Part shown: positions 6,566 to 38,022 of the stretch, piece after piece | Layout: each line of letters starts with the position of its first letter | Numbering within the stretch: position 1 is the stretch's first letter | Assembly: GCF_025398035.1 (NCBI RefSeq) | Contig: NZ_CP104558.1 | Coordinates: forward strand, 1,426,001-1,490,000 | DNA from: Rossellomorea vietnamensis | GTDB taxonomy: Bacteria > Bacillota > Bacilli > Bacillales > Bacillaceae_B | Length of the DNA stretch: 64,000 nt | Direction of reading: 5' to 3' | The notes under the pieces: model-generated | The model's input: the letters and a program-made list of their open reading frames with translations, nothing else | Database searches by the model: none | What the model was told of the DNA's origin: nothing | Position numbers and translations under genes: made by a program

Positions 6566-6595
6566 TGAATATAATTCTTCAGAGAAACCATAATA
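6566..6595 (+). promoter_or_regulatory. Sigma-G (forespore) promoter of the sspB-like gene
   Basis: TGAATA (6566-6571), a 17-base gap, then CATAATA (6589-6595): very close to the sigma-G consensus (TGAATA / CATACTA). Transcription would start near 6602, leaving an unusually long leader of about 140 bases before the SASP start codon. Confidence 0.75.
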
Positions 6596-6627
6596 CCTAG
6601 TAACAAGGCAGCAACAAGCCTTCACTA

Positions 6628-6708
6628 AACCCCACTCGATGGGTTACACCATTTGAAGATGGTCGCTCATGGAATAGCGTGCTGGTGCAATTCCAGCTAA
6701 CCCAACCA
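6628..6708 (+). ncRNA. Structured cloverleaf-like element in the sspB leader
   Basis: Within the predicted leader, TGGGTTA (6640-6646) pairs perfectly with TAACCCA (6698-6704), enclosing three consecutive hairpins: ACCAT/ATGGT (6648-6663), CGCT/AGCG (6664-6679) and GCTGG/CCAGC (6681-6697, a 7-base loop). The 3' side is followed by A-CCA. The layout resembles a tRNA (7-bp acceptor, 5-bp/7-base T-arm abutting it), but the D-loop GG, U33 and TTC of the T-loop are missing, so it is not a functional tRNA. A competing hairpin AACCC (6628-6632)/GGGTT (6641-6645) would break the outer helix, offering a switch. Function unknown; could be an mRNA-stability or translation-control element. Confidence 0.5.
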
Positions 6709-6742
6709 AAAAAACTTATACATTCTAAGGAGATGACAGATT

Positions 6743-6961
6743 ATGCAACAGCAACAATCTCGCAGCAATTCATCTAACCAACTAGTAGCTCCAGGAGCTC
6801 AACAAGCAATCGACCAAATGAAGTACGAAATCGCTTCTGAGTTCGGCGTACAATTAGGACCAGATGCAACAGCTCGTGCTAACGGTTCTGTAGGTGGAGA
6901 AATCACTAAACGCCTGGTTCAAATGGCTGAACAACAAATCGGTGGCGGGTACCAAAAATAA
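6743..6961 (+). CDS. sspB: Alpha/beta-type small acid-soluble spore protein
   Basis: 72 residues with the alpha/beta SASP layout: Gln/Ser-rich N-terminus, [26 protein letters not shown] in which EIASEF holds the GPR protease cleavage site, and C-terminal [18 protein letters not shown] DNA-binding helix. These proteins coat forespore DNA, protect it from UV and heat, and change the UV lesion to spore photoproduct, repaired by SplB (32754-33782). AAGGAG precedes the ATG by 10 bases. Position near yheE agrees with B. subtilis sspB; other sspA-D paralogues are equally similar in sequence, so the symbol rests on synteny. Confidence 0.92.
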
Positions 6962-6983: not shown

Positions 6984-7018
6984 TAAAACTCCCGGTCTTT
7001 TAGGCCGGGAGTTTCATT
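6984..7018. terminator. Intrinsic terminator between sspB-like gene and fumC
   Basis: AAACTCCCGG (6986-6995) pairs with CCGGGAGTTT (7005-7014). Confidence 0.85.
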
Positions 7019-37893: not shown

Positions 37894-37917
37894 TTAAACA
37901 GGTTATGTATCGTTTAA

Positions 37918-38022
37918 GAGAATGTTTCCTACGCTGGTATCAGCCAGTTCAGGTTCAAAGGGTCAGTATCTACAGGATACAATCTCAACCGGCCACTCCG
38001 GTCCCCCTACACGTGGAATATG
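37918..38022 (-). ncRNA. TPP (THI-box) riboswitch
   Basis: Minus strand shows the THI core in order: GGGGGACC, GGTTGAGATTGTATCC (the CUGAGA-like bulge reads TTGAGA), GACCCTTTGAACCTGA and CTGATACCAGCGTAGGAA. These match the conserved pyrimidine- and pyrophosphate-binding elements. Paired with the terminator at 37858, it should switch the salvage operon off when TPP is abundant. Confidence 0.95.

Follow-up and report, generated by a model that had tools for sequence, protein, structure and literature searches.

SspB is a main DNA-protecting protein of Bacillus spores, and PsspB is a standard forespore reporter. One locus of Rossellomorea vietnamensis raises the question of what lies between this promoter and its gene: within a stretch of 64,000 nucleotides, referred to here as the window, a first-pass annotation had placed a cloverleaf-like RNA in the long 5′ leader of an sspB-like SASP gene. 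Is the cloverleaf real, where does it come from, and what may it do for the message that carries it?

The sspB Leader in the Window

The layout of the locus is given in Table 1. The annotated cloverleaf is found at exactly the coordinates assigned to it: a 7-bp helix (U6640-A6646 with U6698-A6704) encloses three hairpins and is followed by ACCA. This fold is the minimum free energy structure of the isolated core (-23.4 kcal/mol, z -2.47), with 4 of 200 shuffled sequences equally good, while the whole leader folded alone gives a weaker signal (z -1.65). Across the elements described below, the mean z is -2.8. The genome of the window contains four full-length alpha/beta SASP genes and one short match, and the element is present at one place only. 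The window also holds a TPP riboswitch (69.5 bits; 37909-38018, minus strand).

Table 1. Features of the sspB locus, numbered from the first nucleotide of the window.
Feature	Position	Strand	Basis and remarks
Sigma-G-type promoter	6567-6595	+	-35 GAATA 6567-6571, 17-nt spacer, -10 CATAATA 6589-6595; from sequence
SASP mRNA 5′ leader, about 140 nt	6602-6742	+	Probable start site about 6600-6604, judged from promoter position
Acceptor-like helix P1, 5′ strand UGGGUUA	6640-6646	+	Fold and covariation
P1, 3′ strand UAACCCA	6698-6704	+	Abuts P4, linker absent; pairs with 6640-6646
D-arm-like hairpin P2	6648-6663	+	6648-6652/6659-6663; both-side changes at 5/5 pairs in the wide alignment
Anticodon-arm-like hairpin P3	6664-6679	+	6664-6667/6676-6679; loop and length variable, anticodon absent
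T-arm-like hairpin P4	6681-6697	+	5-bp stem 6681-6685/6693-6697; 7-nt loop UGCAAUU 6686-6692
ACCA, equivalent of discriminator and CCA	6705-6708	+	A6705, C6706-C6707-A6708; RCCA in 98/100 elements
Predicted RNase P cut, 6639/6640	6637-6640	+	Flank -3 pyrimidine, -2 purine; putative cleavage
Shine-Dalgarno AAGGAGATGA	6727-6736	+	Sequence
Alpha/beta-type SASP gene, sspB orthologue by synteny	6743-6961	+	Start codon 6743; 72 aa, Gln-rich N terminus; PF00269 78.4 bits
Terminator-like inverted repeat AAACTCCCGG/CCGGGAGTTT	6986-7014	+	Sequence

Conservation and Covariation of the Fold

The first-pass annotation had made its proposal depend on conservation and covariation of the helices in relatives, and both were found. 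All 36 genomes sampled from the genus contain the locus and its cloverleaf. Among the 29 distinct congeneric cores (aligned with MAFFT), 7 pairs show changes on both sides, amounting to 14 both-side-changed cells vs. 3.6 in shuffles, a signal that none of 500 shuffles reaches and that is abolished when the structure is slid along the alignment.

In a wider alignment of 64 diverse cores, fitted to the covariance model, 17 of 21 pairs show both-side changes; each of the four helices has compensatory changes, and 95.1% of cells are paired. Its 195 both-side-changed cells compare with 53.8 ± 5.6 in shuffles (0/500) and with only 8-28 in slid controls. When 99 cores are aligned by sequence alone (MAFFT), the top six covarying column pairs all belong to the acceptor or T stem. 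In a tree-based analysis, which was used for ranking only because its null is heavy-tailed and the simulations few, the 13 highest-ranked pairs all belong to the structure, as do 17 of the first 18. A chance fold is thus ruled out by the covariation in both the 29 and the 64 cores, and the tRNA-like structured leader claimed for this sigma-G-type SASP gene proves strongly conserved and covarying across genus and order.

Distribution and Genomic Context

A search of 397 genomes from the order with a first covariance model (R1) yielded many more members; the refined model (R2) was applied with a strict cut-off of E ≤ 1e-6. At this cut-off, which misses divergent members such as L273, R2 finds a match in 150 of the 397 genomes, with exactly one per genome. 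The matches span 57 of 135 genera and, by table count, 25 of 47 families; the latter figure is better read as about 24, because one match, that in L283 of family f3, proved to be a tRNA gene. Outside the order, a search of the class returned 77-nt matches only, which were tRNA-Gln genes in all those checked.

Carriers include Rossellomorea, Metabacillus, Cytobacillus, Mesobacillus, Lederbergia, Niallia, Heyndrickxia, Anoxybacillus and Geobacillus, as well as members of the B. subtilis and B. pumilus groups, namely: B. mojavensis, B. halotolerans, B. siamensis, B. velezensis, B. pumilus and B. safensis. For strain 168, the B. subtilis group was sampled through its close relatives. That family f7 might be B. 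subtilis was considered and dropped, because an SspA query matched it at 82% identity at most. The orthologous place is flanked by msmX together with a small ORF, of 83 aa in the window, and on its other side by fumC or yheG/yheH, with yheC/yheD beyond. In B. mojavensis, this corresponds to the yhe neighbourhood in which sspB is expected by gene order.

A SASP gene lies downstream of 98 of 100 elements, at a median distance of 30 nt from the CCA to the start codon, and a simple pattern finds a sigma-G-like -35/-10 pair upstream of 70 of them. Spread by phage was considered and rejected: there are nine viral pattern matches, and the two stronger ones lie in a phage tRNA array (L302) or a SASP-less stretch (L297). 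In Geobacillus (L207, L158), the element sits directly 3′ of an apparent decayed SASP copy.

Two species, Neobacillus piezotolerans and Bacillus sp. FJAT-27245, have lost the SASP gene at the orthologous locus and retained the element. The two SASP-less elements (L186:5220-5287 and L185:3870-3937, minus strand) are 91% identical between the species vs. 75% and 58% for their flanks, and a terminator-like repeat follows. Such retention hints at a role for the RNA itself, recent loss of the gene being the alternative.

Constrained and Drifting Parts of the Element

In most of the 100 members compared, the acceptor/T half has exact tRNA geometry: a 7-bp acceptor stem, a 5-bp T stem, a 7-nt T loop and no linker. 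At least 6 of 7 acceptor pairs together with all 5 T-stem pairs, linker-free, are found in 87/100, with deviations in about 13/100. RCCA follows the acceptor stem in all but two (L034 and L110, which are CCA-less). T-loop positions 54, 56, 57, 58, 60 and 61 retain tRNA letters, while G predominates at position 55. Pairing persists in the D and anticodon arms as their sequence and length drift; no anticodon is conserved over the 100 members, and the anticodon loop varies widely in length and sequence. Long insertions at the P3 position bring the total to about 113 nt in some members (L099:501-613, L281, L282). Mesobacillus-type species (L178:663-799; L080, L171, L181, L238) have two tandem cloverleaves before the SASP gene, the second degenerate and lacking CCA.

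The letters that form the elbow of a tRNA are missing from most members: the D loop has GG in 12/100 (aligned) and U55 occurs in 13/100. The two features go together, GG being present in 8 of the 13 members with U55 vs. 4 of the 87 others (Fisher p 2.8e-6, relatedness ignored), as expected if some members still form the elbow. On the 5′ side, the -3 position is a pyrimidine in 98/100 and the -2 position a purine in 96/100, a stronger preference than in real pre-tRNAs; a pairing partner for this flank (6637-6638 and equivalents) was looked for and not found. The first pair is U1-A72 in most members (T1 in 95/100) and the discriminator is mostly A, not G. In some clades U1-A72 is swapped to A-U or C-G, which indicates that pairing, and not Gln identity, is kept there.

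Kinship with tRNA-Gln

The only other matches of R1 in the whole genome of the window are its four tRNA-Gln(UUG) genes. With filters off, R2 aligns end to end with nearly all tRNAs of three tRNA clusters, and scores tRNA-Gln at 38.1 bits vs. at most 29.9 for any other isotype; letter matches in the acceptor and T arms give the same ranking (23.7/32 for tRNA-Gln vs. 19.4/32). Shared with tRNA-Gln(UUG) are the UGGG(C/U)UA acceptor strand, the T arm G(Y)UGG..CCAGC, RCCA and often a GCCAAG...GGC D arm. In contrast to the tRNA, the element sits inside an mRNA leader and is without an anticodon or a regular 7-nt anticodon loop; its D loop is short and mostly without GG, and its T loop is mostly UGCAANU, not UUCRANU.

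That this is a true tRNA gene was rejected, since ARAGORN called no tRNA in the window, nor in 51 other loci, nor in an additional seven that are linked to a SASP gene, and the Rfam tRNA model gave no match at E ≤ 1 in 20 loci. As the earlier annotation had proposed checking, the leader was compared with known RNA families, and none in Rfam 15 scores at or near its gathering threshold.

Free-standing relatives were also observed. ARAGORN misses a tRNA-Gln-like gene of Aneurinibacillus (L257:7309-7386, minus strand; identical in L307), which combines a UUG-type anticodon loop with a G55 T loop (UGCAAUC). CATAATA precedes this gene by 14 nt and a terminator-like repeat follows it; it is possibly a forespore tRNA variant. 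Another tRNA-Gln-like body (L283:601-675), which ARAGORN calls tRNA-Leu(CAG), is flanked by a CATACTA motif and a terminator-like repeat and adjoins comG-like genes.

This kinship is most simply explained by descent from a tRNA-Gln gene, with convergence as the alternative. The first-pass suggestion that the leader might be a relic of a tRNA therefore holds for its origin, the best tRNA cross-matches being tRNA-Gln, and fails for its present state: the element is not a mere relic, because compensatory change keeps its helices in about 24 families. Taken together, the alignments and searches make it almost certain that positions 6640-6708 represent a conserved tRNA-like structure of the sspB-type SASP leaders of Bacillales, maintained by compensatory changes and nearest to tRNA-Gln.

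A Putative RNase P Signal

Among the roles suggested for the leader at first pass, control of message stability or processing is possible, while a two-state switch is rejected, the alternative fold being unconserved, and masking of the ribosome-binding site (RBS) is unsupported, the RBS being equally open. The upstream AACCC (6628-6632) that could pair with GGGTT is present in the window, and a comparable complement occurs in 8 of 100 leaders, fewer than the 14.7 ± 3.9 of shuffled flanks. Removing the element in silico makes no difference to the predicted accessibility of the RBS (0.41 with it vs. 0.38 without).

The reading we favour, to which we assign a probability of roughly 0.4, is that the descendant of a tRNA-Gln gene between the sigma-G promoter and sspB has been kept as a tRNA-processing signal, above all for RNase P. 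The ruler of RNase P is the 12-bp acceptor/T stack, and RCC(A) pairs with GGU of RNase P RNA (PMC11143913, PMC4919913); in B. subtilis, the pairing of RCC with the GGU loop is essential (PMC11143913, PMC4919913). The substrate determinants set out in these papers, namely the 12-bp stack, the T loop and RCCA, are all present in the element. We infer recognition by RNase P because the strongly constrained parts are those that RNase P reads, the D and anticodon arms dispensable to it drift, and the CCA is kept internally, where EF-Tu, the CCA-adding enzyme and the synthetases would need further processing first.

In the proposed sequence of events, a tRNA-Gln gene would have landed between the sigma-G promoter and sspB. 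RNase P would recognise the leader by its stacked acceptor and T stems, its T loop and its RCCA tail, and cleave it on the 5′ side of U6640. Processing would leave an sspB mRNA with a base-paired 5′ end that hinders RNase J and other 5′-dependent decay enzymes; 3′ of this helix cap, the A-rich spacer would be open and the RBS free. Capped in this way, the 5′ end would set the abundance and lifetime of the sspB message in the forespore.

The near-constant presence of a SASP gene at short distance and the unaffected RBS speak for the RNase P reading. Against it, most members have G55 and a GG-less D loop, so that RNase P may have a weaker elbow to dock on, two members are CCA-less and about 13/100 deviate in T stem, acceptor or linker. 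The +1 pair is U-A where G-C is favoured, and tRNA-Gln likewise has U-A. The two species that retain the element without the SASP gene argue against a pure mRNA-stability role.

Alternative Explanations

Could the cloverleaf act uncut? As a passive 5′ barrier, it would serve stability or insulation by slowing 5′-to-3′ decay of the SASP mRNA, and its stable fold, its leader position and the open spacer and RBS downstream agree with this. Any hairpin would suffice for such a barrier, however, so that the RCCA, the fixed 7 + 5 bp geometry and the T-loop sequence are left unexplained, and we consider this explanation unlikely.

The closeness to tRNA-Gln, by far the nearest tRNA, would be accounted for if the leader were a tRNA-Gln mimic that binds GltX or GatCAB of the Glu-tRNA-Gln pathway and, in the manner of thrS, couples translation of the Gln-rich SASP to the supply of glutamine-tRNA. 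The prevalence of U1-A72 and the Gln-rich N terminus of the protein fit this idea. However, the anticodon is not kept, some clades have A-U or C-G in place of U1-A72, the usual discriminator is A instead of G, and the fold leaves the RBS unsequestered; such mimicry is thus decidedly improbable.

Another alternative is a trans-acting RNA. Here the sspB leader would be a carrier from which RNase P and 3′ processing, by cutting on both sides, free a small tRNA-Gln-like RNA in the forespore, to act on glutamine-tRNA or the translation machinery at spore shutdown or germination. Such a role would account for the survival of the element after SASP gene loss, and the RCCA end and tRNA-Gln kinship are in keeping with it. 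Nevertheless, the element is nearly always coupled to sspB at a constant distance, no conserved region able to pair with a target is seen and CCA-less members occur, which leaves a trans-acting product with a small share of the probability.

A riboswitch or other ligand-sensing leader that uses a tRNA-like fold by chance is very improbable; its 5′ UTR position and the conserved T loop and junction would suit it, but the conserved letters are tRNA letters, and neither a conserved anti-RBS or alternative fold nor an Rfam match is found. Finally, a functionless, decaying tRNA pseudogene would explain the clear tRNA resemblance and the lost anticodon, but can be practically dismissed, as it is already contradicted by covariation, with compensatory changes in all four helices over about 24 families, a single syntenic copy per genome and an element better conserved than its flanks where the SASP gene is lost.

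Significance and Comparison with Known Systems

The tRNA-like RNA of the sspB leader seems to be deeply conserved and undescribed; a tRNA-like SASP leader is unreported in the literature searched, which comprised open papers. It looks like a tRNA gene turned mRNA leader, of which more and less tRNA-like members are still visible, and may be a new route to process or protect a spore message. If RNase P reads the element, then a tRNA-processing enzyme shapes a developmental mRNA in a tractable model, in which the stability of spore messages becomes open to direct experiment.

Several known systems share some of its features. The tRNA-Other of B. cereus, a pseudo-tRNA, is likewise a tRNA-like RNA in Bacillus; it differs in being a free RNA with no known tie to a SASP gene. 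The thrS operator of E. coli is a tRNA-like domain in an mRNA 5′ UTR, as is the sspB element, but what it mimics is the anticodon arm, and it overlaps with translation initiation, whereas the sspB leader keeps the acceptor/T half and leaves the RBS free. T-box riboswitches are also Firmicute 5′ UTRs linked to tRNA (PMC4919913); the T-box binds tRNA, whereas the sspB element resembles it and has no T-box match in Rfam.

Closest to the RNase P reading are the substrates of this enzyme beyond tRNA, which include the 4.5S precursor, the tRNA-like end of TYMV and mRNAs (PMC11143913). Shared with the mRNA and tRNA-like substrates are an acceptor/T-stem stack and RCCA that are recognised independently of the remaining tRNA (PMC11143913). 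What sets the sspB element apart from them is that its cleavage is a prediction and that it forms a family of conserved leaders, all attached to a single kind of spore gene.
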